Source: Luteimonas deserti (GTDB lineage Bacteria > Pseudomonadota > Gammaproteobacteria > Xanthomonadales > Xanthomonadaceae). Taken from it: 64,000 nt of DNA. The DNA lies in the NCBI RefSeq assembly GCF_013425765.1, contig NZ_JACCJZ010000004.1, forward strand, positions 248,001 to 312,000. Reading direction: 5' to 3'. Shown one piece after another: positions 32,447-46,964 of this stretch. The translations under genes were made by a program, and so were the position numbers. The first letter of the stretch is position 1, and the number at the start of each line of letters is the position of its first letter. The notes under the pieces were generated by a model that was not told the DNA's origin, searched no databases, and saw only the letters and a list, made by a program, of their open reading frames with translations.

Positions 32447-32540
32447 CGATGGGCGCCGCCGTGCATGCGCGCGCCTTCACCCCGGGCTGCCGCTGCCCCA
32501 CCTAGCGTGGACGCCCATCCCCCGACACGCCCGCCTGCCG

Positions 32541-33341
32541 ATGGCTGCCACCCTCCGCATCGCGACCTACAACGTCAACGGCATCACGTCGCGGCTGCCG
32601 CATCTGCTGCGCTGGCTCGAGGCCACGCGTCCGGACATCGTCGCGCTGCAGGAGCTCAAGGCGAGCGACGAGGCCTTTCCGCTCGAGGCGATCCAGGACG
32701 CGGGTTACGGCGCGCTGTGGCATGGCCAGCGCGCATGGAACGGCGTGGCCCTGCTGGGGCGCGGCACGACGCCGGTGCAGAGCCGGCGTGGACTGCCCGG
32801 CGATCCTGCCGACACCCAGAGCCGCTATCTCGAGGCCGCGGTGCATGGCGTGCTGGTGGGCGCCCTCTATCTGCCCAACGGCAATCCCCGCCCGGGCCCG
32901 AAGTTCGACTACAAGCTGGCCTGGATGCGTCGTCTGGCCGCCCATGCACGCGGACTCGTCGGACTGCCGCATCCGGTGGCGCTGATCGGCGATTTCAACG
33001 TGATTCCCGAGGACATCGACGTCTACGACCCGAACGCCTGGCGTCGCGACGCACTGATCCAGCCCGAGGTGCGCGCCGCGTATGCGCAGCTGCTCGAACA
33101 GGGCTGGACCGACACCCTGCGTGCCCTGTTCGAGGACGCGCCGGTCTATACGTTCTGGGATCACTTCCGCCAGCACGCCGAGCGCGATCGCGGGCTTCGG
33201 ATCGACCACCTACTGCTCAATCCGGTGTTGTCCGCGGCCGTCGAGGCCGCCGGGGTCGATCAGTGGATGCGTCTGGAAGAAAAGGCCAGCGACCACGCGC
33301 CGACCTGGGTGGAGATCGCGGTGGAGCACGCGATCCCCTGA
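32541..33341 (+). CDS. xth: exodeoxyribonuclease III (Xth/ExoA family)
   Basis: 266 aa. EEP-fold AP endonuclease/3'-5' exonuclease. Motifs are ATYNVNGI, VALQELKA (metal-binding Glu), GDFNVIPED (Asp-Asn), LRIDHLLLN and the terminal SDHAPTW (catalytic His). It removes abasic sites and 3' blocks in base excision repair. The last 45 or so codons are repeated, degenerate, once or twice more just downstream, as part of a triplicated gene-junction block. The intact copy ends at the first TGA, 7 bases before a hairpin. Confidence 0.93.
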   Translation: MAATLRIATYNVNGITSRLPHLLRWLEATRPDIVALQELKASDEAFPLEAIQDAGYGALWHGQRAWNGVALLGRGTTPVQSRRGLPGDPADTQSRYLEAAVHGVLVGALYLPNGNPRPGPKFDYKLAWMRRLAAHARGLVGLPHPVALIGDFNVIPEDIDVYDPNAWRRDALIQPEVRAAYAQLLEQGWTDTLRALFEDAPVYTFWDHFRQHAERDRGLRIDHLLLNPVLSAAVEAAGVDQWMRLEEKASDHAPTWVEIAVEHAIP

Positions 33342-33421
33342 CACGGCGCTGCCGCCCACCGTGAGGTGGGCGGCAGCGGCGCTGTATCGGGGCTGGGTCT
33401 TGGCCGTACCCGTACCCGTAC
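33210..33421 (+). repeat. junction repeat copy A (xth end + hairpin + katN-like tail)
   Basis: First, intact unit: the last 45 or so codons of xth, a 13-bp hairpin (33348-33377) and, 14 bases on, a 21-bp segment (33392-33412) resembling the manganese catalase 3' end. Copies B and C repeat the same order downstream. Confidence 0.8.
33348..33377. terminator. xth terminator hairpin (copy A)
   Basis: GCTGCCGCCCACC and GGTGGGCGGCAGC form a perfect 13-bp stem (14 with the flanking C-G pair) with loop GTGA, 7 bases after the xth stop. Confidence 0.7.
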
Positions 33422-33640
33422 CTGCTGCTTAATCCGGTGCCGTCCGCGGCCGCCACGGTCGATCAGTGGATACGTCTGGAAGAGAAGGCCAGCGACCACG
33501 CGCCGACCTGGGTGGAGATCGCGGTGGAGCACGCGATCCCCCGGCACGGCGCCGCCGCCCACCGTGAGGCGGGCGGCAGCGGCGCTGTATCGGGGTTGGG
33601 TCTTGGTCGTACCCGCGGCGGGCCCAGCGCCGCGTTACGC
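33422..33640 (+). pseudogene. junction repeat copy B with xth 3' fragment
   Basis: A degenerate duplicate of copy A, offset by 212 bp at its left end and 203 bp after a 9-bp deletion. It still reads LNPVPSAAATVDQW then RLEEKASDHAPTWVEIAVEH, but has lost the stop codon (CCCCGG in place of CCCTGA). Its hairpin (33551-33580) keeps the GTGA loop with two mismatched pairs. The 21-bp catalase-tail-like segment recurs at 33595-33615, again 14 bases after the hairpin. Remnant, not a gene. Confidence 0.75.
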
Positions 33641-33793
33641 AGCAGTGACACAGGTCGGCAAGAAAAGGCCAGCGACCACGCGCCGACCTGGGTGGAGATC
33701 GCGGCGGAGCACGATCCCCCGACACGACCGTGCCGCCCGCCGTGAGGCGGGCGGCACAGGCACTGCGTCAGCGCTGGGTCTTGACCGCACCCG
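33641..33793 (+). repeat. junction repeat copy C running into katN 3' end
   Basis: Third unit, offset 180 bp from B. The xth fragment is shorter and more decayed (AAAAGGCCAGCGACCACG is conserved from 33663). The hairpin at 33730-33757 (TGCCGCCCGCC, GTGA, GGCGGGCGGCA) is perfect again. The 21-bp segment at 33773-33793 is the real 3' end of the manganese catalase coding sequence, so this copy supplies the working terminator of that gene. Confidence 0.75.
33730..33757. terminator. manganese catalase terminator hairpin (copy C)
   Basis: TGCCGCCCGCC and GGCGGGCGGCA make an 11-bp perfect stem, 12 with the flanking G-C pair, loop GTGA, 11 bases downstream of the minus-strand catalase stop. Confidence 0.65.
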
Positions 33794-34664
33794 CGCCGGG
33801 GCCGGCGCCGAGTTCCGCGCCGGTGAGCGGATCGGAATCCGGCACCGAGGCGGTGCGCTCGGCGAAGGCGTTGACCGCCTGGAGCTCGCGTTCACCCAGC
33901 AGTACAGTGGCGCTGCCGTCGCCGCCGTCGACCGCGCACTGAGCATCGCGGTCTTCCACCCGCTCCCACAGCTCGCCGGAATTCCACGGGCCGCGCACGT
34001 CGCCACCTTCGCCCTGGGACATGTCGAAGTAGAGATCGGTGAAGGCCGGATCGCCCGGCAGCTTGCCCGGCGGGAAGTTGGGCGTGATCGCGTACAGCGC
34101 CTTCTCGAACGACTTCTGGTGCGCGACCTCGCGGGTCATCAGGAACGTCAGTGCATCCTTGACGCCCGGATCCGTGGTCAGGTTGATCAGCCGCTCGTAG
34201 ACCATCTTGGCGCGCGCCTCGGCGGCGATGTTCGAACGCAGGTCCGCCGTCGGCTCGCCGATGGTGTCGATGTAGGCCGCGGTCCACGGCACGCCGCTCG
34301 AATTCACCAGCGCCGGCCCGTTGCCGTACAGGATGGCCTGGGTCTGGCTGGTGCTGTTGCCGGTGAGATTGCGCATGTCGGCCATTTCTTCCATGCCTTC
34401 CGCGAGCTCGCCCTTGGCGCCCTTGTTGAGCATAGTGATGATCGAGCCGATGATCTCGAGGTGGCTCAGCTCCTCGGTCGCGATGTCGAAGAACAGGTCC
34501 TTGCGGCCCGGATCGTCCTCGGCCAGGGCCTGGGTGAAGTAGCGCATCGCCGCGGCGAGCTCACCCTGCGGTCCGCCGAACTGTTCGAGCATGAGCGTGG
34601 CGAGCTGCGGATTGCCTTGCTCGACACGGACCGTGTACTGGAGTTTCTTGTTGTGCATGAACAT
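33768..34664 (-). CDS. katN: manganese catalase
   Basis: 298 aa. Ferritin-like four-helix core with the dimanganese ligands in MLEQFGGPQGELAAAMRYF (Glu), ATEELSHLE (Glu and His), AEARAKMVYERL (Glu) and MTREVAHQKSFEKAL (Glu and His). The N-terminus MFMHNKKLQYTVRV is typical, so ATG 34664 is used although the frame stays open upstream. It splits hydrogen peroxide without haem. The last 8 or so codons (GAVKTQR region) lie in repeat copy C. It is followed upstream by a DUF892 gene on the same strand; the pairing is common in general stress regions. Confidence 0.92.
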   Translation of the reverse strand: MFMHNKKLQYTVRVEQGNPQLATLMLEQFGGPQGELAAAMRYFTQALAEDDPGRKDLFFDIATEELSHLEIIGSIITMLNKGAKGELAEGMEEMADMRNLTGNSTSQTQAILYGNGPALVNSSGVPWTAAYIDTIGEPTADLRSNIAAEARAKMVYERLINLTTDPGVKDALTFLMTREVAHQKSFEKALYAITPNFPPGKLPGDPAFTDLYFDMSQGEGGDVRGPWNSGELWERVEDRDAQCAVDGGDGSATVLLGERELQAVNAFAERTASVPDSDPLTGAELGAGPGAGAVKTQR

Positions 34665-34783
34665 CGGGAGGGAGTCCTCTGTGGGCCTGACGGGGCTGCC
34701 CACGCTAGGGCCGCCGCGATGACCGGCGCATGAGATTCCAGACGGTCTGCGCCGGCGGTGCGAAACACTTGCCGTACATGGCT

Positions 34784-34797
34784 CGCACACGTGTGCG
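34784..34797. promoter_or_regulatory. 14-bp perfect palindrome upstream of katN
   Basis: CGCACACGTGTGCG reads the same on both strands. It lies 120 bases upstream of the catalase ATG, a possible regulator site. Confidence 0.35.
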
Positions 34798-35136
34798 TGC
34801 ACCGGAAACGGGCGATCGAAGGGGTCGATCGCGTCATGCGATCACGCTTCAACGGAACGCGTGATCCCGGGTCGACATGCACGTGCAGCGCAATGGACAT
34901 GCGACGGCCGTGTTGCGCATGGCCGGCATGCACCGCATTGCGATAGGCCATGCCGATAGATGGACCGTTGCCTGGTCTTGGCCCCATCGACCGGTCGACG
35001 TGGACGGACCGGGTGCGGCCCTGGCCGTCGTGTACGCGCAGTGCGTCGCCGACTGCAGCGTTGTAGGCGTCGGCGCGACGGATGGCCCCACGGTCGGGTC
35101 GTGTGCGCCGCACCTCATGCCTGCGCACCTGCGCAA

Positions 35137-35166
35137 CGACGTCCGGCCAGGTGCGGCCGGACGTCG
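35137..35166 (-). terminator. terminator of DUF892 gene
   Basis: CGACGTCCGGCC and GGCCGGACGTCG form a 12-bp perfect stem with loop AGGTGC, 9 bases past the stop of the minus-strand gene. No U-tract. Confidence 0.6.
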
Positions 35167-35175
35167 CGCCATGCA

Positions 35176-35673
35176 TCAGCCCGCGTCGGCGGCGTCCTGG
35201 TTGCCGCCCGATTCGGCCAGCAGGGTCAGCTTGGCGTCGGTGGCTTTTTCTTCTTCGAGCGTCGCCTGCAGCAGCTTGATCGCATCGTTGTAGCCGAGCT
35301 GCTTGGCGAGCGCGCAGATGGTGCCGTAGGAGGCGATCTCGTAATGCTCGACCTTCTGCGCGCCCCCGATCAGCGCGGCGTCGCGCAGCGGGCCCTTCTC
35401 GATCTCGTCGATGACTTCCTTGCTCTCTTCCACCAGGCCTTCCATCGCCGCGCACTTGATGCGCTTGAGCCGGATGCCGAGCAGTTCCACCACCTGATCG
35501 AGGCGCTCGATCTGGCCCGCGGTCTCCTCGAGGTGGGCCTCGAACGCGGCTGCCAGCTCCGGATTGCTCGATGCGCGAATCAGGCGCGGAAGTGCCTTGG
35601 TGATCTGCCGCTCCGCGGAATGGATGTCGGAGAGTTCATGGATGAAGAGATCTTCGAGCGTCTTGACGGCCAT
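35176..35673 (-). CDS. DUF892 (YciF-like) ferritin-like protein
   Basis: 165 aa, all-helical ferritin-like fold of the YciE/YciF family. The N-terminal HELSDIHSAERQITKALPRL contains the first Glu/His ligand set, AAFEAHLEETAGQIERL the second, and KVEHYEIASYGT the third. YciF-type proteins are stress-induced in enterobacteria and may bind a di-metal centre; a biochemical role is not settled. ATG 35673 has GGAG upstream. It sits beside manganese catalase, consistent with an oxidative or stationary-phase stress group. Confidence 0.88.
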   Translation of the reverse strand: MAVKTLEDLFIHELSDIHSAERQITKALPRLIRASSNPELAAAFEAHLEETAGQIERLDQVVELLGIRLKRIKCAAMEGLVEESKEVIDEIEKGPLRDAALIGGAQKVEHYEIASYGTICALAKQLGYNDAIKLLQATLEEEKATDAKLTLLAESGGNQDAADAG

Positions 35674-35825
35674 AGCGGGAACTCCGGGGGTGAGGACGGG
35701 CGATTGGAAGGCAGCGCTCGTGAGCCGCACGTGAGCCGCGCGAGCAGCAAGACGTGTGTTCATGCATGCCTGACATGCTCCCATTGGGAGTGCGAGAAGG
35801 GCTGCCAGGCTCTTCAGTCGCGACG

Positions 35826-35859
35826 CTAAATAAAAATTTCTTACCTCGCGTTGACGAGG
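35826..35859 (-). terminator. rho-independent terminator of the defence operon
   Basis: On the minus strand CCTCG-TCAACG-CGAGG is followed by TAAGAAATTTTTATTTA, a classic hairpin plus U-rich tract about 60 bases after the res stop. It is the only such U-tract terminator seen in the window, in line with a foreign origin of the island. Confidence 0.7.
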
Positions 35860-35917
35860 CTGCTCTGCCGCACTTTTACCAGCGATATCAATGGCTGTCA
35901 GGGGTTTGCGAATACGA

Positions 35918-38900
35918 CTAAGCTACTTCGACGGTCGAGAGCATAATGCGGAGCCGCTCAAAGTTATCAACCATTTCGTAGCGCACGCGATCTGACGCAG
36001 TGGCGTGGTCGAGGTCATGAAAAAATTGCCGGGCGCACTCGATCTTGGCCAGTTCGATTCCGCGAAGTTCCATGCTCGCCATCGTGCCTTTGGTCTCGGC
36101 GACAAAGTAGATGTGCTTGACGTCGCCGTCCTGCAGCGCAATGGCCCAGTCGGGGTTGTAATCACCGACGGGTGTTGGGATGGCGAAGCCTCGCGGCAAC
36201 TTCGCATACACCACAACCTCGTTCCCGGTCTCCAGATCCGTCGTGAACTGGCGCTCAATCGACGAGTCTCCGTCGATCTCGACGTAGTCGAAGACGTGCT
36301 TGGTCAGAGGAGCCAGTTTTCCGGCGTGGTCAGCGCGGCCCACGACGCGGCCGAAATCCACGCGGCGCTGCGCCATGGTGAAGATGTCGGCATCCCAGCG
36401 ATCCTCCAGCAGGTCGTAGGCCAGGTGCTCCACGACGGCAGCGGCTTTCTGCTCCTTGATCAGGCGGGTGGCCAAGCTCAGGAAGCCTTCGGGGTTGCTC
36501 CGGAACTGTGCAAACACGGGCTGAGCGATCCCGGAGAGGATGCGGGCGACGGTCGCACGCCGCAGCACGGTGGCCTCCGCCAGTTTGCCGACGAGGTCGT
36601 AGCGCACCCCCGAGTGCACCGAGGCCCGGTGCTTGTCGATGCGGCTTTCGCTGACCCGGAATCCGTCTCCTTTCTTCAGTGCGTCCGCGTCGATACCGTC
36701 CTGCTGCTGGCCCGATACCACCGTGTACTGCAGCGGCTGTACATGCAGTTCCTTGTCCAGAGTCGCGATGCACTTGCCCACGAGTTCGTCGCTGTCGAAA
36801 TGTACGGTGTACGCCGCTTTCCGATTGATCCGGTTCCATAGCGCCTGAAACTCGCGCTTGTGGAAGTTCTCGTTCAGACGGTTGATTTGCCCCTTGCGGC
36901 CGTCCTCCGGCGTGGGCAGCAGCGCCTGCGTGAACACGCTGTCCACGAGTTCGAACACCTGTGCAGCGTAGGGCTGCAGTTCGGCTGGCAACGCGGCGCG
37001 CGTGCCCGCCGCCCGCGCCGCGTGGTAGTCCGCGGTGATGGTGGCATGGTCATCGATGTAGTCGTGCTTGAGCAGGTAGCGGTAGATCTGTCGTGCCATG
37101 ACCGGTGTCACGTCGACCCCGCCATCGGGTGCGGCCAGCACCTTTCCGGTGAAGTAGGCCTCGTCCGCCACCCGCGGGCGGTCTGAGAGTGTGTCGCTGA
37201 TGTCCCTCTGCAGCCCTGCCACGAAATCCTTGTAGCTTTCATTCGCCACCACGGTCAGCACGTTGATCTCATGCACGGTGGTCGTGTGATCCATGCGGTC
37301 GCCGTGCTGGTTCACGGCGAGGCGCAAGCCGCGACCCACTTCTTGCCGGCGCGACACCGTGTTGTCGCTGTGCTTGAGCGTGCAGATCACGAAGATGTTG
37401 GGATTGTCCCAGCCCTCGCGCAGCGCCGAGTGGGAAAAGATGAAGCGCACCGGCTCGTCCAGCGACAGCAGACGCTCCTTGTCTTTCAGGATCAGATCGT
37501 AGGCGTCGACATCGTCGGATAGCCCGGCTTCTTCGCCCCGTAGCTTCACGCTCGGGTCGACCAGCCGTTTGCTCTTGCGGTCCTGCGAGAAGTAGCCGTT
37601 GTGGGTGCGTGCCGGGTCGATGCCTTGCAGATAGCGGTGGTAGTCGCGGCTGCCGGCATCCAGATCGAGTTCGAGCACGCGGTTCAGTGCATCCCGGTAC
37701 TCCTCTTCGAAGATGCGCGCGTACTCGCCGCGCTCGTCCTCGCGGCTGTAGTCGCGGTACTTCGCCACCTCGTCAATGAAGAACAGGCTCAGCACCTTGA
37801 TGCCGCGATGGAACAGCACCTGCTCGCGCTCGAAGTGGGCGCTGATCGCTTCCCGGATCTGGATCCGACGCAGCACATCCTCGTGCACGTCGCCCACCGC
37901 CTCGCCGGCATCGAGCACCACGCCGTTGTTGAAATGCACGGTGCCGTCGCGCGCGTCGATGTCACTGACCACATAGCCTTCGCGGTACTGGTCCAGCTCA
38001 CCCGAGAGTCCGAACAGGTTGTCGCCCTTGCGCAGTGTCCGCAGCTCGCGCTTGATCTCGGTCTTGCGCCGCACCTCGATCTCGACGCGCGCCTTGGGCG
38101 CCTTGCTGGGGAACACCCGGATGTCCTGCAGATAAAGATAGCCGTGCGTGCCGGTCTGGCCCTTCACGGTGATGCCGCGCACCGCGATGCGTTTGACCAG
38201 CTTCTGGTTGTAGGCATCCAGCGCGTCAAGCCGGTGGACCTTGTTGTGCGTGGTCCTGTGGGTGGCCGAGTAGCGCAGCAGCACCATCGCCTGGAACGCC
38301 TTCAGCGACTCCAGCGTCTTCTTGCCCTCCATCTTCTGCGGCTCGTCCAGGATCAGGATCGGCCGGTTGGCCGCGATCACGTCGATCGGCTTGCGCGACT
38401 GGAAGGCGTCCAGCTCCTCGTAGATGCGGCGGTTGTCCTTGCCGGTGGCGTTGAAGGCCTGCACGTTGATGACCATCACGTTGATGCCGGCATCCGACGA
38501 GAAGCTCTCCAGCTCGTGCAGGCTCTTGGAGTTGTAGATGAACGCGCGGGCCTTCCGGCCGTAGGCCTGCAGGAAGTGATCGGCCGTGATGGCGAGCGTC
38601 TTGGCCACACCCTCGCGGATCGCGATCGACGGCACCACCACGATGAACTTGCTCCAGCCGTAGCGCTGGTGCAGCTCGAACATGGTCTTGATGTAGCAGT
38701 AGGTCTTGCCGGTGCCCGTCTCCATCTCGACATCCAGATTGATGTCACAGGGCGGGCTGGCCACCAGATCCGGTGAGACCGGCAGGTTCTGCTGGCGTTG
38801 CACCCGCTGGATGTTGTCCAGCAGCTGCGCGCGATTGAGCTGCAGCGGTGCATTGCGGAAGCCCGCCTGTTCCAGCAGCCGCTCGGTCTGCCCTTCGGCG

Positions 38901-39025
38901 GCCCGGCCCGGATCCACCCGGTAGCGCATGGCCGCCGGGTCCGCCATGGGCTGGCCCTGGAAGCAGTCGGCCACGGCCTCGACGGCGGCGGTCTGGTAGG
39001 GCTGGACTTTGAACTTGAGCTTCAT
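35918..39025 (-). CDS. res: type III restriction enzyme Res subunit (DEAD/DEAH helicase-nuclease)
   Basis: 1035 aa. SF2 helicase motifs are METGTGKT (Walker A, 101-108), ILDEPQ (motif II), RYSATHRT (motif III), [12 protein letters not shown] (motif V) and [11 protein letters not shown] (motif VI). The C-terminal PD-(D/E)xK nuclease is intact: Asp959 in NPDW, then Glu977 and Lys979 in AETKG. This is the EcoP15I/EcoP1I Res layout; it cuts DNA with Mod after ATP-dependent site communication. ATG 39025 opens the typical KFKVQPYQ start, and an in-frame ATG at 39082 is possible. It is the last gene of the five-gene island, 105 bases after the regulator gene. Confidence 0.92.
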
Positions 39026-39130
39026 GCGGACTGGGGCTGCTCTTTGTGGGCTCTTTGAAGCCTGCGCGAGAAAGAGATGCAACTGGTTGATTTGTATGGG
39101 TCAAGCGGGGTTGTCTCTTTCCTGGCTCTT
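39026..39130 (-). promoter_or_regulatory. res leader region with AAAGAG direct repeats
   Basis: On the minus strand the spacer holds two close pairs of AAAGAG (AAAGAGCC/AAAGAGAC and AAAGAGCC/AAAGAGCA) about 50 bases apart, with TTGACC between them. It may carry an internal promoter or a regulator site for res. If the start at 39082 were used, part of it would be coding. Confidence 0.3.
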
Positions 39131-40792
39131 TCATGGTCTCGTCAACTTCCACCTGGGGGCTGTATCGGACCCGGCATTCACGATCGCGCCCTGCTTCCGC
39201 AGTTTGGTGAGAAGACCGCTGATTTTCCGCGCCTTCTGTTGGTCACTCAGCGCGTCGCTCAGCTTGTCCAGCAGCAACTGGTTGAAATCGGCGCGACTGG
39301 CCTCGCTCTTCAGCGTCAGGTAGTCGGTGATCAGCTTGAGATAGAACGCGTCGTCCTGCCCCCGCGTGCGGATGTAGTCCGCCACGCTGGCCGTCGCCTT
39401 CGCAACCGAGGCCGAGACGAAATAGTTCGGCTTGCGGCCCTCGATGAGCCCAGTCCGGCGCAGACGACCGGCGGCATCATCCGGGATGGCAAGCTTCTTC
39501 TGCACGCGATCCAGCGCCAGGACATCGGCCAACGGCAGGTCGGTGTTCTGAATCAGAAGACGGCTGTATGCGGGGTCGACCACGCCCCCATACAGGGTCA
39601 TCTTCACGGCTTGTGACTCACTCAGATCGTAGTCCGGGAGCGGAAAGTAGCGGCGTACCTGCCCCTGGTAGATCGAATGGATGCCATACCCCATGGTGTC
39701 GATCATGTTCAGCTCGGACATGGCCTGGGTCAGAAATGGATTGCGGTAGCGGAGCGGGGTTTTCTCGCCCCCGATGTATTCGTCAGGCTGTCCCTCGAAG
39801 AAGCCGCCCACGTTCTCGAACAGCAGCCGGTCCGGCCGCTCGGTCACCACCACCCGGCCATTCCGGGTGTAGTCCTGATGGGCAATGCAGTTGTGCAAGG
39901 CCTCCAGCACGATGCGTTGGTCGTACTTGGCAACTTCGACCGGGATCAACTTATCCTGCGGCAGGATGCGCAGCTGCACATTGCGGATGCGCTGGTAGAG
40001 CGCCGTTGTGCTCAGCAGGAAAGGCGGCGCGAAATGCTCATAGGCGCGCTCCTGGCCCTCCAGTTTCCAGGTCAGTTGCGCCGGGTTTGGATTGAGCCAA
40101 TGGGACGCCTCCCGCTTCCCCAGCAGCAATAAGGTCGTGCGGGTGATCGCGCCGTCCTGCGTCAGGCGTGCCCGATCGAGAAAGGTCGCCAGTGGCCACG
40201 CAGCGACCTCGTCGGCGGCAAACCGGTTGGCGTGCTTCTGCGCAAACGAATCCCGCGCCTTGTGCGTTGCGGCCTCGTCCAGGTCATCCAGCGTGGCGCC
40301 CGCCACCACCTGCGCGGTCCAGTCCTGGGCCAAGGTCTGGTTGCGGATCTCGTCCAGCTTGTCCAGGCCCAGCGGGACCAGGCTCTCGCTGGCGCGCGCG
40401 TAGTAGTGCCCCTTCCAGGCGATCGCCATGCCACGGGGCGCGGCAGGGATCTGGAACAGCAGCACGCGGCCGTCTGCGTGATGCAGCTCATGGATATCGC
40501 GGAAGGTGATGCGCGGGTCGCTGTTCTGGGCGATCTGCATCTTCAGCGAGTGCAGGCGCCCGGCCTCCGGCCTGTAATCGGTGCCCACCACGCCGCGGGT
40601 GCGGTTGTTCACGCCGAAGATCAGCCAGCCGCACTCGGCCCCACGCAGGTTGGCCTCATTGGCCAGCGCAGCAAAGTACCTGCCGATATCGTCAGTGCCG
40701 AAGGCGTCGGTGGCCTGCTTGAACTCCACCACCTCGCTCTCCCAGCGGGCGATCAGCTCGGCCAGCAACGCTTGCAGCTCGGTCTTGTCCAT
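39131..40792 (-). CDS. AlbA_2/AAA-4-type DNA-binding regulator with HATPase-like domain
   Basis: 553 aa. The N-terminal AlbA_2 (divergent AAA-4, Schlafen-like) domain shows EVVEFKQA, RYFAALANEANLRG and GWLIFGVNN. A middle domain of the HATPase_c_4 type has ALHNCIAHQDYTRNGRVVV and LLFENVGGFF, followed by IDTMGYGIHSIY. The C-terminal part looks like winged helices (FNQLLLDKLSDAL, GLLTKLRKQGAIV). Such proteins are annotated as transcriptional regulators and often sit in restriction and toxin loci. The start is 41 bases after a 30-bp near-palindrome, a likely own operator. It lies between mod and res, so it may time nuclease expression. Confidence 0.85.
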   Translation of the reverse strand: MDKTELQALLAELIARWESEVVEFKQATDAFGTDDIGRYFAALANEANLRGAECGWLIFGVNNRTRGVVGTDYRPEAGRLHSLKMQIAQNSDPRITFRDIHELHHADGRVLLFQIPAAPRGMAIAWKGHYYARASESLVPLGLDKLDEIRNQTLAQDWTAQVVAGATLDDLDEAATHKARDSFAQKHANRFAADEVAAWPLATFLDRARLTQDGAITRTTLLLLGKREASHWLNPNPAQLTWKLEGQERAYEHFAPPFLLSTTALYQRIRNVQLRILPQDKLIPVEVAKYDQRIVLEALHNCIAHQDYTRNGRVVVTERPDRLLFENVGGFFEGQPDEYIGGEKTPLRYRNPFLTQAMSELNMIDTMGYGIHSIYQGQVRRYFPLPDYDLSESQAVKMTLYGGVVDPAYSRLLIQNTDLPLADVLALDRVQKKLAIPDDAAGRLRRTGLIEGRKPNYFVSASVAKATASVADYIRTRGQDDAFYLKLITDYLTLKSEASRADFNQLLLDKLSDALSDQQKARKISGLLTKLRKQGAIVNAGSDTAPRWKLTRP

Positions 40793-40826
40793 GTGCGCCT
40801 CAGCGATCTGCGAGTTCTATGCGTCG

Positions 40827-40856
40827 GACCATATTCGTGACGTCACGAAAATGGTC
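40827..40856. promoter_or_regulatory. 30-bp near-perfect palindrome upstream of the regulator gene
   Basis: The core TTCGTGACGTCACGAA (40834-40849) is a perfect 16-bp palindrome. Extending outward, 14 of 15 base pairs match over 30 bp, with one A-A mismatch. It fills half of the 67-base mod/regulator gap. There is no loop, so a protein-binding operator fits better than a terminator. Confidence 0.6.
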
Positions 40857-40859
40857 GTC

Positions 40860-42737
40860 TCACAGAGTCCGGACTTCGGTGGAGGGCGACAGGGTCTTGA
40901 AGATCTGCTCCACATTGACCCGCGCGTTGTCGCTCGCGAAGCCGGCATCGCGGAACACCACGCGCAGCGGCTGGCGCGCGGCCAGCTGCTTGACGAAGGT
41001 CTCGTCGACGCTGCCGTCGGCCGCGAAGCACGCGGCCAGTGCATTGCCGTCGACAAAGAACACCTCGCGGCCGCCGATGTCCTCGCGAGCGATCGGCAAT
41101 GCCAGATCCACGCCCCAGTCCAGCAGCACCTGGAACAGCAGATCCTCGGCCGTGCGGCCCGGGCGGATGTTGTCGATCTGGCCGAGCAGGTCGTCCTGCT
41201 TCAACTCGTCGGGGCGGTAGTACACCTCGGCCATGTTGGAGGTGTCGATCTTGAGAACGCGAAAGCCGGTGTCGGTCGTTGTGTCGGGATGGGTGTCACG
41301 CAAGTCCTGACCGACATTGCGGATGCGCCGCAGCCCCATCTCGAAGATCGACGCCATGCCCGGCTCCGGTTTCGGCAGAGGCTCGGTGATCTGTACGCCG
41401 ATAAAGCGCCGGTTGCCACCATCCTCTGCGTTCTGTTTGAGCACGGCATGGGCAGTGGATGCGCTGCCGCTGAAGAAATCCAGCACCACATCCCCCGCAT
41501 CCGGTTCGCCTGCGAGCTGCAGGACGCGCTGCAACAGTTCCACTGGCTTGACGGAGTTCAGCACATTCTCCGTGTGCTCGAACTGCACGTACTTGAGCAG
41601 GGTCTTCTTGGCGTCTTGGGTGTGGCCGACTTCTGAGTAAGGCCAGAGAGTCTGCGGCGTGCGACCACCGGACACCTCGGATAGAAACTTCTTCACCGCA
41701 GGCGTGTTGTTGCCCTCAGCACCCCACCAGATGCGCCGGTCTGCATCGAGCGCCTTGAACTTCACCTCGTCGGTGACCCAGTAGCGCCCTGTGGGCGGCC
41801 CGGGAATCACGCGGCCGGTTGGGCTGGTGACGGCATACATACCTGCGTCATATCGGTTTCGAGCCGACATGTCCGCTGCCTTCCACGGCCCGCGCGGGTC
41901 GTTGTCAGGGTTTTTGTAGCGGGCCTCCATTGCTTCCGTCCGGGCGAGTTGCTGTGGCCGCCACTTCGACTTCTCGCGCGCGTATACGAGCAGATAGTCG
42001 TGGTCCTCAGAAAACCAGTCCGCAGTGTTCTTTGGTGCGTAAACCTTCTGCCAGATGATCTGTGCTACGAAGTTTTCTTCGCCGAACACCTCGCTGCAAA
42101 CCTTGCGCAGGTTGTCGACCTCGTGATCGTCAATCGAGATGAAGACAACGCCATCGTTTCTCAGGAGATTTCGGGCCAACTGCAGGCGCGGATAAATCAT
42201 GCTCAGCCAATCGGAATGGAAGCGACCGTTCGCCTCGGTGTTTGCGATCAGGCGCCTGCCTGCTTCGTCGGTCTGATTGGACTGGGCGAGATAGCTCTCG
42301 GCATCGTCCTTGAAATCATCGTCGTAGATGAAATCGCGGCCGGTGTTGTAGGGCGGATCGATGTAGATCAGCTTGACCTTGCCCAGGTACGTCTCCTGCA
42401 GCAGCTTGAGCGCATCCAGGTTGTCGCCTTCGATGAACAGGTTCTGCGTGGTGTCGAAGTCCACGCTCTCGTCGCGGCACGGGCGCAAGGTCTTGGCGAT
42501 CGGCGCATTCGCGGCCAGCAGCGCCTCGCGCTTGCCGGGCCAGTCCAGCCGGTAGCGTTCCTGCGGACCTTCGACGAGGTGATCACTCAGCGCCTGGCGC
42601 AGCAGATCGAAATCGATCGCCCGCTGAAGCGTGCCGTCCGCGCCTTGGCGCTCGGTCACGCAACCCGGAAACAGTTTGGCGAGCCGATCGATGTTGGCGG
42701 CGACAAGGTCGGGCGAGTGCATCTTCAATCTGTCCAT
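40860..42737 (-). CDS. mod: type III DNA methyltransferase Mod (beta class adenine-N6)
   Basis: 625 aa. Motif IV DPPYNTG (127-133) comes before motif I DFFSGSAS (420-427), the beta-class order of type III Mod proteins; the target-recognition region lies between (about 190-410). LIYIDPPY and GRFHSDWLSMIYPRL are typical Mod phrases. The C-terminus (EVYYRPDELKQDDLL onward) resembles the Mod tail that contacts Res. ATG 42737 has GAAGGAAG upstream. Single lines in the target-recognition part count only 30/60 GC, below the gene ends and far below the chromosome. Confidence 0.93.
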   Translation of the reverse strand: MDRLKMHSPDLVAANIDRLAKLFPGCVTERQGADGTLQRAIDFDLLRQALSDHLVEGPQERYRLDWPGKREALLAANAPIAKTLRPCRDESVDFDTTQNLFIEGDNLDALKLLQETYLGKVKLIYIDPPYNTGRDFIYDDDFKDDAESYLAQSNQTDEAGRRLIANTEANGRFHSDWLSMIYPRLQLARNLLRNDGVVFISIDDHEVDNLRKVCSEVFGEENFVAQIIWQKVYAPKNTADWFSEDHDYLLVYAREKSKWRPQQLARTEAMEARYKNPDNDPRGPWKAADMSARNRYDAGMYAVTSPTGRVIPGPPTGRYWVTDEVKFKALDADRRIWWGAEGNNTPAVKKFLSEVSGGRTPQTLWPYSEVGHTQDAKKTLLKYVQFEHTENVLNSVKPVELLQRVLQLAGEPDAGDVVLDFFSGSASTAHAVLKQNAEDGGNRRFIGVQITEPLPKPEPGMASIFEMGLRRIRNVGQDLRDTHPDTTTDTGFRVLKIDTSNMAEVYYRPDELKQDDLLGQIDNIRPGRTAEDLLFQVLLDWGVDLALPIAREDIGGREVFFVDGNALAACFAADGSVDETFVKQLAARQPLRVVFRDAGFASDNARVNVEQIFKTLSPSTEVRTL

Positions 42738-42807
42738 CGAGCTTCCTTCAGTGATCGGCCGCTGCGCCTGTGGCGCGCAGCCCGGCATTATGGCGCCGGC
42801 CGCGGGT

Positions 42808-43485
42808 CTATTCGCCCGGCTCGCGCAGTTGCGCGAGCCGACGTTGCGCCTCGCGCAGCTGCTGGTTGATCTGGACCTTGCGGTTGAACTGCGTCTCGGC
42901 GTGCAGCCTGGCCTGCAGCCGGGCGCCGTCGCGTTCGGCCAGCCGCACGGCGGCGAGACGTGCGAGCAGGGCATCGAGCGTTTCGCCGCGGCGCCCGGCC
43001 AGCGGGACCAGGGCGCGCATCAGCGCCTGATGCAGGCCGGCGAGATCCAGCGCGACCGGCAACGGGTGGCGAGCGGCCTCGGCGGCCACCCACGTCCCCG
43101 CGATGTAGGCCCCCAGAACCTGCTTGCCGGCGGTGGCCGCACTGGCACGTTTGGGTGCCCCCACCGTGCAGGTGCCTGCATCGCCCGTCACTTCGAACAG
43201 CAACGGGGACGGGATGGCCAGATCGATGGCGCGCAGCAGCGGCTCGCTGGCGGTCGCCACGCCCGGCTTCAGGCGCAGGCGGAAGACCTGAAACTCCGGC
43301 AGGCCGCCGGGCGGCAGGTTGAGGGTGGTGGTGGCGAGCTTGCAGGCCCAGCTGATCTCCGCCAGCTCCCGGGTCACGCGCTCGCGCAGGCCGGGCGGCT
43401 TGCCGGCGCGGGCCAGCACCTCGGTCTTGCTGATGGCGCGGTCCACGCGGGTGGCGGGCGGCCAGTCGAAGACGACGGCGCTCAT
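42808..43485 (-). CDS. DUF4391 domain protein
   Basis: 225 aa, matching the DUF4391 family in the N-terminal RVDRAISKTEVL, the central EIQVF-like EFQVFRLRL and the LPVALDLAGLHQALMRAL region; the family has no known activity. The last 60 residues are charged and helical, probably a coiled coil (EAQRRLAQL). Its start overlaps the SNF2 helicase stop by 4 bp (ATGA), so the two are translated together and likely work together. The next gene, mod, follows after 70 bases that hold a CTGCGC/GCGCAG hairpin (42762-42780). Confidence 0.75.
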   Translation of the reverse strand: MSAVVFDWPPATRVDRAISKTEVLARAGKPPGLRERVTRELAEISWACKLATTTLNLPPGGLPEFQVFRLRLKPGVATASEPLLRAIDLAIPSPLLFEVTGDAGTCTVGAPKRASAATAGKQVLGAYIAGTWVAAEAARHPLPVALDLAGLHQALMRALVPLAGRRGETLDALLARLAAVRLAERDGARLQARLHAETQFNRKVQINQQLREAQRRLAQLREPGE

Positions 43486-46400
43486 GCAGCCTGCGGCATC
43501 GCCTGGACCGCGAGGAAGCAGATCAGCTCGAAATCATCGAGGCCGGCGATGGCGTCGGTGAGCGCCGTCGTGGTGGGGCTGCCGAACAGGGTGTCCATGT
43601 CCTGATCGGCCTTGCGGTCGATGATGGCCTCGATGGCGCGATCGAGCAGGCGCGAATAGGCGGTCATGTCGCGGCCGTCGTCGGTGGCGCGGTTGAACAG
43701 GCGACAGGCGGGGGCGAGGGGCGCGTCGCGGCCCTTGCAGGACGCGCGTGCGATGTCGAGGATCTGCTTGACCTGGGTGTGGTCGGCCACGACGCGGCCG
43801 GCGTCGCTCACGTAGACCAGATAGTAGGGATGCAGCCGGTTGAGCTGCTGGATGTTGACCCCGTGGTTGCGGTTGCGCAGCGCGAAGATCGCGCCGGGGT
43901 GGAGGCCGCGCGGCGGATCCGCCGGCAACACCGCATGCAGGCCGGTCGGCAGGCTGCCGAGCCCGTCGCTGTGCCGCAGATGGTTGAGCAGATCCATGCG
44001 GAAGTCGTTGAGCCCAAGATCGGTGATGGACACGCCCGTGCGGACATCCTCCAGTTCGATTACTTCGTCCTGCAGGCGGCGCAGCTGTTCCTTGCGGTAG
44101 GCCACGTCGTTGTCGTTGGCGCCGTGGCGCAGCACGTTGTCGTCGGCCGTGGCCACCACGTCGGAAATGACCATGCGGTTTTCCACCCGCTCCTTGAGGT
44201 TGATGTACTCGTCCAGCGTGATGTCGGGCCAGAAGTTGATCAGCTGGATGCTGGCGTTGGGCGAGCCGATGCGGTCGATCCGGCCGAAGCGCTGGATGAT
44301 GCGCACCGGGTTCCAGTGGATGTCGTAGTTGATGACGCAGTCGCAGTCCTGCAGGTTCTGGCCTTCGGAGATGCAGTCGGTGCCGATGAGTACCTCGATC
44401 TCGCCCGGCTCGTCAGGCAGGCGCTGGTCCTTCTGCTTCGCGCGGGGCGAGAACAGCGTGAGCACGCTCTGGAAGTCGTAGCCCTTGCCCAGCGTCGTGC
44501 GCGGTGCATCGGAGCCGGTGACGATGCCGGTGTGCAGCTGGTGGCGCTGCAGCAGCGGGGCGCTCAGCTGACGGTAGAGATAGTGCGCGGTATCCGCGAA
44601 TGCCGTAAAGACCAGCACCTTGCGGTTGCCGGTGTTGAAGGGCGCGGCGAGCTTGACTTCGATCTGGGCCAAGAGGTGTTGCAGCTTGGCGTCATCCTCC
44701 GGGGGAACCTTGGCCATTTCGTCCAACAGGGCGCCGATCACGGCCAGATCCTGTGTCAACTCATGCTGCCAGCGCGGCAGATCCATGTCGGCGAGATCGA
44801 TCCGGATCTTGCCGCCGATGCTCTGGTCGGCATCGGGCAGCTCATCGGCGTCCGGTTCGGCATTCTCCAGGGCGTCGACCAGGTCGAGGATGCCGGGGTC
44901 GCCGGCGCCCTGCAGAAAGCGCTCGATGCGCGACAAGGTCTCGGTGTGGGTGTCCTGCAGCTTCCGCAATGTCATGCGGAACGCCTCGACCGAGCTCTCC
45001 AGGCGCTTGAGCAGGTTCACCGTCATCAGCCGCTGCAGGCTCTTCTCACGGTCCGCCTGCTTGAAGGTGCCGCCGCCGCCGGCGACCTCGGTGTCGTACA
45101 ACGCCTCGTACTTCTTCACCCGGCTCGGGAGCAGGTAGCTGACGGGCGCATACACCGCGAGCTTCAGCTGCGACAGCTGCTGGAAGATGGCGTTGAAGCC
45201 GATGACGTCATCGCGCGCGGTCAGCGGCGAGTGGATCGAAATCGGCTTGCGTCGCTCGGGGAAGTGACCGATGTCGGTCGTGTCGTAGAAGGTCTCGATG
45301 TGGCGACGCGACCGCGCGATGGTGACGCTGTCGAGCAGGTCGAAGAAGTCGTAGTCGAGCATCGCCAGGATCGCATCGGGCGTTCTAGCGTCTAGTGGCA
45401 GCCGCGACCAGGTGTTGAACGCGCCCTGGGCGCTATTGAAGATCTCCTGCACGCTGCGGTTCGAGCCGAGGCGGCTGCGCAGGTTTTCTTCCTTGCCTTC
45501 GTAGGCCAACGCCAGCTGGTTGCGCAGATCGTTGAAGCGGTTGTTGACCGGCGTGGCCGACAGCATCAGCACCTTGGTCTTGACGCCCTGGCGGATGACC
45601 CGGTGCATCAGCTTCTGGTAGCGGGTTTCCCGGTCCTTGAACGCATCGTTGTTGCGGAAGTTGTGCGACTCGTCGATGACGACAAGGTCGTAGTTGCCCC
45701 AGTTGATGCGATCCAGCGGCATGCCCAGGGATTCGCCGCGATCGCGCTGCAGATCGGTGTGACACAGCACGTCGTAGCTGAAGCGGTCGGCGACGAATGG
45801 ATTGGTCCTGAGATTCCGGTTGAAGGTGATCCAGTTGTCCGCCAGCTTCTTGGGACACAGCACCAGCACCGATTTGTTGCGCAGCTCGTAGTACTTGATC
45901 ACTGCCAGTGCGGTGAAGGTCTTGCCCAGGCCAACGCTGTCGGCAAGGATGCAGCCGTTGTAGGTCTCCAGCTTGTTGATGATTCCTGTCGCGGCATCGC
46001 GCTGGAAGTTGAACAGCTTGTTCCAGACCAAGGTGTCCTGATAGCCCGTACGGTCGTTCGGCAGAACGTCCTCGCTCAGGTCTTCGAGGAACTCGCTGAA
46101 GATGTTGTAGAGCAGGAAGAAGTAGATCCGTTCTGGGGAATTCTCCCGATACACCGATGCGATATGGTCGTGCAGGCGTTCGCTGACGTCCTCCACGCGA
46201 CTGTCGTCGTGCCAGATGCGGTCGAACAACTCCAGGAATTGCTGCGTGTGCGGCGCTTCGTTGAAACGAGTGACGTAGTTGGAGACCGCATCGCCCGGCT
46301 GGTATCCGAGATCGACCGCCGTGAAGCCGTGGAGTGGCTGGTAGACGGCATGTTCTTCCGCAGTGCGCAGGCAGGCGAACTGCTGCATGGGCGCCGCACC

Positions 46401-46766
46401 CCGGTTGGACCTGAACTTGGCTTTGCGTCGCATCCAATCGGCGCACTCGCGCGCAACCGCGCGTTGCGTGAGCTTGTTCTTGAGCCGGATCTCGAACTCG
46501 CTTCCGAAGAAGCTGCGTTCCCGCTCGCCGTTCGGAATATGAAATTCGCGGCGTTGCTTGGTCACCTTGTCGGTCGCCTGCTCCAATACGAACGCGGAGG
46601 ACGTGAAGATGAACTCGAGGCTCTCGATCTTCTCAAGCTCGTCGCGCAAGGCTTCGAAGGCGTAGATGGAGAAGGTGGAGGCCGCGATCTTGAGCTGACC
46701 GCCTGGCCTGATCGATCGTTTGAAGTCATCGCCAAGCCGATGGTTGATGTTGTCGATGAGTTCCAA
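43482..46766 (-). CDS. SNF2-family helicase with PLD-like N-terminal domain
   Basis: 1094 aa. TTG 46766 is preceded by GGGAGG on the minus strand. Residues 1-170 look like a phospholipase D-like domain (LKIAASTFSIYAFEAL, LEFIFTSSAF), but no HxK(x4)D motif is seen, so it is probably not catalytic. The SNF2 core has DSVGLGKT (Lys282), VIDESHNF (Asp365) and LSATPVNNR. The second RecA lobe has VLVFTAFADT, GTDCISEGQNLQ and QRFGRIDRIGS. It is presumably an ATP-driven DNA translocase. First gene of the island operon. One line of its 5' part (46081-46140) counts 29/60 GC. Confidence 0.9.
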   Translation of the reverse strand: MELIDNINHRLGDDFKRSIRPGGQLKIAASTFSIYAFEALRDELEKIESLEFIFTSSAFVLEQATDKVTKQRREFHIPNGERERSFFGSEFEIRLKNKLTQRAVARECADWMRRKAKFRSNRGAAPMQQFACLRTAEEHAVYQPLHGFTAVDLGYQPGDAVSNYVTRFNEAPHTQQFLELFDRIWHDDSRVEDVSERLHDHIASVYRENSPERIYFFLLYNIFSEFLEDLSEDVLPNDRTGYQDTLVWNKLFNFQRDAATGIINKLETYNGCILADSVGLGKTFTALAVIKYYELRNKSVLVLCPKKLADNWITFNRNLRTNPFVADRFSYDVLCHTDLQRDRGESLGMPLDRINWGNYDLVVIDESHNFRNNDAFKDRETRYQKLMHRVIRQGVKTKVLMLSATPVNNRFNDLRNQLALAYEGKEENLRSRLGSNRSVQEIFNSAQGAFNTWSRLPLDARTPDAILAMLDYDFFDLLDSVTIARSRRHIETFYDTTDIGHFPERRKPISIHSPLTARDDVIGFNAIFQQLSQLKLAVYAPVSYLLPSRVKKYEALYDTEVAGGGGTFKQADREKSLQRLMTVNLLKRLESSVEAFRMTLRKLQDTHTETLSRIERFLQGAGDPGILDLVDALENAEPDADELPDADQSIGGKIRIDLADMDLPRWQHELTQDLAVIGALLDEMAKVPPEDDAKLQHLLAQIEVKLAAPFNTGNRKVLVFTAFADTAHYLYRQLSAPLLQRHQLHTGIVTGSDAPRTTLGKGYDFQSVLTLFSPRAKQKDQRLPDEPGEIEVLIGTDCISEGQNLQDCDCVINYDIHWNPVRIIQRFGRIDRIGSPNASIQLINFWPDITLDEYINLKERVENRMVISDVVATADDNVLRHGANDNDVAYRKEQLRRLQDEVIELEDVRTGVSITDLGLNDFRMDLLNHLRHSDGLGSLPTGLHAVLPADPPRGLHPGAIFALRNRNHGVNIQQLNRLHPYYLVYVSDAGRVVADHTQVKQILDIARASCKGRDAPLAPACRLFNRATDDGRDMTAYSRLLDRAIEAIIDRKADQDMDTLFGSPTTTALTDAIAGLDDFELICFLAVQAMPQAA

Positions 46767-46933
46767 GCGTGCCCTCCCTTGCTGCGTCGTCGAAGCATAG
46801 CCTGCGCGTCGAGCTTGTCGGCGAGGTACGGGCGAAGCGCGACGCCGTCTATTCCCATCCCGTAGGGCCGGCGCTTAGTGCGAGCGTGTACGTGTCACCA
46901 GCGGGAAACACTGACGTAGCACCGCGAGGTCTG

Positions 46934-46952
46934 TATACTCCCCCCGAGTATA
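46934..46952 (+). promoter_or_regulatory. FrmR operator
   Basis: TATACTC-CCCCC-GAGTATA, a perfect 7+5+7 inverted repeat with a C-run centre, is the form of FrmR/RcnR-family operators. It lies 12 bases before the frmR start codon, so FrmR binding would block its own promoter. Confidence 0.8.
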
Positions 46953-46964
46953 TAGGCCGGACTC

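Follow-up and report, generated by a model that had tools for sequence, protein, structure and literature searches.

The window analysed here is a stretch of 64,000 nt from the Luteimonas deserti contig NZ_JACCJZ010000004.1 (positions 248,001–312,000; all coordinates below are window positions), in which five minus-strand genes form a single run between 35918 and 46766. An earlier note on this DNA had described the run as a five-gene island in which a type III Mod/Res core is joined to an SNF2-type helicase with a PLD-like domain, a DUF4391 protein and an AlbA_2 regulator. All five open reading frames (ORFs) are found where that note had placed them, the 4-bp overlap between the helicase gene (HEL, 43482-46766) and the DUF4391 gene (42808-43485) is confirmed, and the further gaps of 70, 67 and 105 bases are reproduced when Mod is taken from its family start at 42737 and Res from an in-frame ATG at 39025. 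Domain calls, made with Pfam and PADLOC profile models on the window proteins, recover the domain set named there, with Pfam matches to SNF2/Helicase_C, DUF4391, N6_N4_Mtase, HATPase_c_4, and ResIII plus RE_endonuc. The genes are as follows:

43482..46766, minus strand: HEL, SNF2-family ATPase, 1094 aa (Pfam, PADLOC, ATPase motifs)
46305..46391, minus strand: degenerate PLD-like segment of HEL, residues about 126-154 (alignment of DUF4391-linked helicases with that of locus L075)
42808..43485, minus strand: DUF4391 protein, 225 aa (Pfam PF14335, AlphaFold2 (AF2) model)
40860..42737, minus strand: Mod, type III beta-class DNA methyltransferase, about 625 aa (PADLOC MTase_III, homology to EcoP15I)
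39131..40792, minus strand: AlbA_2/HATPase_c_4 protein, 553 aa, cargo of slot B (Pfam; comparison with locus L080)
35918..39025, minus strand: Res, type III restriction subunit (PADLOC REase_III, homology to EcoP15I)

Four of these genes recur together well beyond this genome. In a phylum sample of 398 genomes, where contexts were counted only if contig ends leave room, 25 DUF4391 genes are found in 23 genomes (a gene split into two fragments in genome G336 is counted once). HEL lies upstream in all 20 genes with room, the other five being cut by a contig end, and downstream Mod is present in 22/23 and Res in 19/20 cases, with the same locus (L042) as the exception in both. A HEL profile at E 1e-50 finds 22 sample genomes, in 20 of which the gene adjoins DUF4391 (the others are L075 and L076), and a Res profile at this threshold finds 44; among the 27 strong Res genes with readable context, 19 lie in the cassette. 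Contig ends truncate most of the remaining Res matches, which for some is judged from coordinates alone, and two short fragments (G002, G077) were left out. There are also five weaker Res matches at about 320 bits, and both that were inspected (L074, L079) are Mod-Res pairs lacking HEL-DUF4391. Mod-Res occurs without HEL-DUF4391, and DUF4391 hardly ever occurs without Mod-Res.

The second set consists of named loci, the best 80 of 146 from a DUF4391 alignment scan, on which all named-locus counts given here rest. They show a single order, HEL-DUF4391-(x)-Mod-(x)-Res, with HEL in 79/79, Mod in 77/77 and Res in 72/72 loci with room. About ten phyla appear in their titles: Pseudomonadota, Thermodesulfobacteriota (sulfate reducers), Chlorobiaceae, Synergistota, Acidobacteria, Planctomycetes, Akkermansia, Spirochaetes, Myxococcota and Actinomycetota. 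Many named loci come from metagenome bins, and an individual phylum label may therefore be mistaken. Eight plasmid loci carry the same HEL-DUF4391-Mod-Res set (in L002, mod is split by an IS256 element), and DNA of the E. coli version of HEL-DUF4391 has matches of 97-99.9% identity in 10 of 5,426 E. coli genomes, nine of them plasmid-borne, in a megablast search that registers close copies only. In the 3.7 Mb L. deserti genome DUF4391, HEL and this Res each have a single match at the limits used; the nearest named locus is that of Lysobacteraceae bacterium NML93-0793, with 92% identity in DUF4391.

It is near certain, then, that the core architecture comprises four genes, SNF2 (HEL), DUF4391, Mod and Res, which gives DUF4391 a working context. 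The conserved order in both samples supports the earlier note in joining a type III core to an SNF2 ATPase and DUF4391. That note would have put the association down to chance if, among other things, the two extra genes were found mostly elsewhere, and the sample counts for HEL and Res above show that they are not.

Both type III subunits are readily recognised. The Mod ORF spans 40860-42974, with the family start at its residue 80 (42737); it scores 747 bits against PADLOC MTase_III and matches Mod 6k0w at 3.8e-72 and EcoP15I Mod (4zcf_A) at 3.8e-54. Its motifs stand in the beta-class order of type III enzymes, DPPY (IV) at 206 preceding FSGSA (I) at 501 in ORF numbering. The Res ORF opens at a TTG at 39082, with the in-frame ATG at 39025, and scores 1081 bits against PADLOC REase_III and 6.3e-77 against EcoP15I Res (4zcf_C); GTGKT at 123, DEPQ at 246 and PD...ETK from 977 mark it as a superfamily 2 (SF2) ATPase with a C-terminal PD-(D/E)XK motif. 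EcoP15I (Mod2Res1) thus shares homologous Mod and Res sequences with the motifs in the expected order, but it is a two-gene system, whereas here HEL and DUF4391 belong to a conserved operon. Type III enzymes characteristically require a pair of unmethylated sites in inverted orientation for cleavage, and their Mod methylates a single strand. Mod and Res alone are held to be sufficient for type III restriction; many EcoP15I-like Res genes nonetheless share operons with an SNF2-DUF4391 pair.

HEL has the hallmarks of an SNF2-type motor: Pfam matches to SNF2-rel_dom (5.4e-12) and Helicase_C (9.6e-14), and the ATPase motifs GLGKT at 279, DESH at 365 and QRFGRIDR at 825. Its start codon is a TTG five bases 3' of a Shine-Dalgarno-like GGGAGGG stretch. 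The best helicase model is PADLOC C3a139 'HKD+Snf2' (399 bits, 1.2e-119), whose match begins at residue 177 and so leaves the PLD part outside. The PLD-like domain that the earlier note had seen in HEL is there in degenerate form, recognisable through a sister protein, that of L075, which is 40% identical over 1104 columns, as common helicase descent would have it, and retains HGK and GSSNFT (PLDc_2, 1.1e-8); Pfam returns no PLD match for the window protein even at E 5, nor for four further DUF4391-linked copies tried. We aligned 102 DUF4391-linked rows (100 distinct, the window being present also as L059) with L075. The HxK catalytic pair is absent at the HGK columns in all 102 rows, window included; these columns read QQF in 68 and other triplets in the rest, and the one HxK pattern match among the DUF4391-linked rows (L144) falls outside them. 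In contrast, L075 and L076, HEL relatives from genomes without a DUF4391 match, keep the HKD motif. An active PLD nuclease in HEL is rejected on these grounds, and the domain is probably an inactive nuclease fold, retained for binding, assembly or some other non-catalytic purpose.

The DUF4391 protein matches PF14335 at 3.2e-32 (112.7 bits against a cut-off of 29.9), and its AF2 model, with a mean predicted local distance difference test (pLDDT) score of 92.5, consists of an alpha/beta domain (about residues 1-160) and a helical hairpin (about 170-221). Eleven positions are invariant in 68 sequences: P9, K20, W46, L50, E64, F68, D88, P94, K112, P143 and E168. In 66 of the 79 named loci a start codon in the DUF4391 frame overlaps the HEL stop (64 ATGA, 2 GTGA; the window has ATGA), and HEL and DUF4391 would usually be translationally coupled. 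When DUF4391 distance is set against HEL distance the window lies outside the six largest residuals, and unusually fast DUF4391 divergence specific to the window is therefore rejected. Guanine-plus-cytosine (GC) content is 0.733 in DUF4391, 0.618-0.637 in HEL, Mod, the AlbA_2 gene and Res, and 0.701 in the whole window; DUF4391 stands 10 points above HEL here and a mean of 3 points (standard deviation 2.7) above it over 79 named loci, so the trend is general, though strong in the window. DUF4391 relatives with 35% and 29% identity are also encoded in MT836075.1 and MT836122.1, two faecal phage records of 13 kb that carry no annotation.

The fifth gene does not belong to the core. Gaps of at least 350 bases occur between DUF4391 and Mod (slot A) in 14 of 72 named loci and between Mod and Res (slot B) in 32 of 72. 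A Pfam scan covering 19 of the 56 ORFs in these slots and a further one on plasmid L004 found AlbA_2/HATPase_c_4, RhuM (3), Bro-N (2), YhcG nuclease (3), SIR2_2, HerA-like DUF87 (2), a UvrD-like helicase, OLD-type AAA-TOPRIM and AAA_21, while five ORFs matched no family; the SIR2_2 and DUF87 genes of L136 are direct neighbours. Two slots within a restriction operon, in other words, collect defence-like genes. Of the 72 complete named loci, 17 have an AlbA_2 homologue, which in one case lies in slot A. As for the label itself, the window protein has HATPase_c_4 at 8e-10 while its AlbA_2 part misses E 1e-3 in Pfam, and the name is upheld by a homologue in L097 (SLFN_AlbA_2, 1.4e-15). The clearest exchange is seen in L080, which occupies the same chromosomal site in a related species and has a Bro-N gene between Mod and Res instead of the AlbA_2 gene: DNA identity to the window is 89.3% over HEL-DUF4391-Mod and 92.3% over Res, and the match stops at the Mod stop codon to resume 20 bases 5' of the Res ATG. 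Slot contents also vary among twelve loci (Halomonas relatives and others) whose HEL is 92-100% identical to that of L125. The AlbA_2 gene is an exchangeable passenger in slot B, and the five-gene unit proposed in the earlier note is rejected in favour of the four-gene core. Unrelated genes inserted among restriction-modification genes are familiar from Campylobacter type I hsd loci, with their R-linked and M-linked ORFs (rlo/mlo); those loci belong to another restriction-modification type, whereas here two slots lie within a type III operon.

How tightly do the four core genes hang together? We compared pairwise distances across 62 loci, assessing significance with 999 permutations, a procedure that does not remove shared ancestry. 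Distances for HEL, DUF4391 and Res correlate at r 0.88–0.93 (HEL–Res 0.91), those for Mod with the other three at r 0.39-0.45, and none of the 999 permutations reached any observed correlation, Mod's included. The lower figure for Mod conceals a marked profile along the protein: the first 40 residues give r 0.46-0.51, residues 160-559, which hold the catalytic core and the specificity region, give r -0.15 to 0.16, and the last 65 residues, which track HEL and Res best, give r 0.65-0.75. By this profile, the Mod core is exchanged while the C-terminal end of Mod, HEL, DUF4391 and Res descend together, and we infer from the pattern that HEL-DUF4391 works with Res and with the Res-facing part of Mod.

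Several described systems resemble parts of this cassette. The closest, according to the accessible text of PMC8259958 (2021), are type III systems that make N4-methylcytosine (m4C): Eco86II and BspHIV have, like the present locus, an additional helicase-like ATPase 5' of mod whose role is left open there, and such an ATPase is reported near mod-res in more than 500 genomes. E. coli NCTC86 has one SNF2-Mod-Res locus in the two stretches read, presumably Eco86II, with a Mod of 1040 aa and without DUF4391. Its SNF2 protein is 29% identical to HEL over 217 aa but 58% identical over its full length to those of L073 and L187 (46-58% including L069), and its Res has no BLASTP match to the window Res at E 1. 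In the Eco86II type, then, an SNF2 protein of its own branch is encoded directly 5' of mod, whereas here DUF4391 intervenes and HEL is of a different branch; that the window holds an Eco86II variant is rejected on both counts. In L069 and L073 a Res of the window's PADLOC family goes with an NCTC86-type SNF2 gene directly 5' of mod, which means that SNF2 genes of two branches have become linked to type III loci. In E. coli locus L187 (5611-14798), also of the other branch, one run comprises a helix-turn-helix (HTH) gene annotated mads1, SNF2, Abi family, AIPR family, site-specific methyltransferase and DEAD/DEAH helicase genes; slots are thus not limited to the DUF4391 variant.

Other likenesses are more distant. 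The accessible text of PMC12839542 describes BREX-related type 2 systems with an HKD plus Swi2/Snf2 effector helicase, a likeness seen here in C3a139 being the best HEL model and in the sister L075; yet L075 and L076 keep the HKD motif, whereas DUF4391-linked helicases lack HxK. The L075 gene adjoins one for an Eco57I-type methylase, and its locus resembles the BREX-related group without more being implied. DISARM also has an SNF2 helicase beside a methyltransferase, but HEL scores 149.6 bits against DrmD, far under the cut-off of 610, DrmA/DrmD matches are weak, and DUF1998 (DrmB) is absent by Pfam from the five genes and 14 other ORFs of the region; DISARM membership is rejected. A Cronobacter element for which the accessible part of PMC12757443 lists a type III endonuclease, Mod methyltransferase, DNA helicase IV and SNF2 helicase, not treated there as a unit, may carry either the DUF4391-linked or the other SNF2 branch. 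In the literature searched, which mostly excluded subscription papers so that prior publication is possible, no DUF4391 type III variant was found; DUF4391 occurs there in a single table row of one paper, and PF14335 and C3a139 go unmentioned. As far as the accessible text of PMC8259958 goes, a three-gene type III variant with the other SNF2 protein (Eco86II) is already published, and the DUF4391 variant would be the new part.

Taken together, the locus represents a genuine variant of type III restriction that has four core genes, is widespread and carries passengers that can be exchanged. We suggest, with a probability of roughly 0.6, that it is a type III-like restriction-modification system in which HEL-DUF4391 acts on the restriction side; the defensive function, the formation of a complex and the part played by HEL-DUF4391 are read from sequence comparison. 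By homology to EcoP15I, Mod would recognise an asymmetric site and its methylation would protect host DNA, while Mod and Res would cut unmethylated incoming DNA. HEL and DUF4391 probably form a complex that acts with Res and not in target recognition, perhaps by serving on unmodified DNA as an additional translocase or as a clamp, with the dead PLD-like fold of HEL possibly retained for binding or assembly and the AlbA_2 gene presumably travelling along as a swappable passenger. More tentatively, and on the doubtful side, the pair might be a second motor that changes type III cleavage rules (for example by removing the need for a head-to-head pair of sites), a need that two SNF2 branches, this cassette's and the NCTC86/Eco86II type, would then have met separately. 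The role of the pair is directly testable, since nature supplies cargo-free cassettes, for example on plasmids of E. coli and Methylotuvimicrobium, as well as Mod-Res loci that lack HEL-DUF4391.

A number of observations weigh against a restriction-side role. Eight of the 27 strong Res genes (L060, L061, L064, L067, L069, L071, L072, L073) lack HEL-DUF4391, and the pair may therefore be dispensable for Res of this family; the other circumstance that the earlier note had tied to chance, mod/res pairs usually lacking the two genes, is to that extent partly true. The DUF4391 gene of L042 (2-859, at a contig start) has no Mod or Res over the following 9.6 kb, the only exception seen. The start-codon overlap is not found in 13 of 79 named loci, and HEL and DUF4391 are 0.3-2 kb apart in six (about 2 kb in L104). 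The DUF4391 model has no convincing match among library folds, and none of them explains the protein. According to the accessible text of PMC8259958, the extra ATPase of Eco86II is dispensable for methylation and undetected in the active enzyme fraction. Finally, some of the correlation in distances may arise because the genes are inherited together as a single cassette.

Alternatively, HEL-DUF4391 might serve modification, opening or remodelling DNA for Mod or licensing the methylation of newly arrived or replicated DNA, much as the earlier note had considered in speaking of genes perhaps helping Mod. Mod is indeed the next gene after the pair in the 58 of 72 named loci whose slot A is empty, and type III systems exist in which Mod needs Res to methylate (accessible text of PMC8259958). 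However, Mod residues 160-559 vary independently of HEL while Res tracks it, and Mod-Res loci without the pair exist; we consider a helper of Mod unlikely, and less likely than a role beside Res. It is likewise improbable that the pair is a separate defence effector, for instance a block on foreign DNA replication or transcription, that merely shares the operon. SNF2-type ATPases do occur in other systems (HEL has weaker matches to the DISARM DrmD, DpdE and BrxHI/HII models) and some slot genes resemble parts of other defence systems, but L042 alone among the 25 DUF4391 genes of the 398 genomes has room and no Mod or Res, and the co-divergence with Res would be unexpected. We think it very doubtful that HEL-DUF4391 restrains Res, protecting the host from having its own DNA cut at replication forks or once the Mod core has been exchanged. 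Mod cores do vary while HEL, DUF4391 and Res stay together, and such exchange would leave host sites unprotected, but some Res genes of this family do without the pair. That the genes are chance neighbours in a defence island, as the variability of the chromosomal site among relatives might suggest, is rejected because gene order is conserved in both samples, the named loci having about ten phyla in their titles and mostly showing the start-codon overlap.

Beyond the genes, two further features were mapped:

32447..46934, no strand: variable chromosomal site containing the island (blastn against genomes G407, G406 and G409 and locus L080)
35828..35859, minus strand: possible weak terminator, CCTCG-TCAACG-CGAGG, then TAAGAAA, then TTTTTATTT (by eye)

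In the congener G407 the site is empty, window positions 32447 and 46934 having counterparts about 135 bases apart; different DNA fills the site in G406, and G409 matches at the right flank alone (all by blastn). The earlier note's suggestion of recent acquisition fits the empty site in G407, but the cassette also sits at this position in a related species (L080) and is thus not private to this strain. Cassette DNA is 89-92% identical between window and L080, compared with 81-86% for the flanks, a difference compatible with transfer or recombination once the two species had separated. The U-tract terminator claimed for the operon end is at best weak: a 5-bp stem with a separate T-run is visible by eye, unscored by a terminator scan.

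The site adjoins frmR-adh-esterase genes (Pfam), which probably have a formaldehyde function. The next gene upstream of HEL in the window is the divergent frmR-like gene, and between the two lies a palindromic TATACTC-C/G run-GAGTATA element (46934-46954), which we take to resemble the operator of this frmR-like repressor. Elsewhere an annotated HTH or WYL regulator gene stands directly upstream of HEL (L003 5547-5732, L005 5535-5735, L008 4791-5696). Tandem repeats of 203 and 178 bases, each in two copies, overlap one another at 33237-33818, where the variable site has its left edge, next to a Mn-catalase gene (33768-34802, minus strand).

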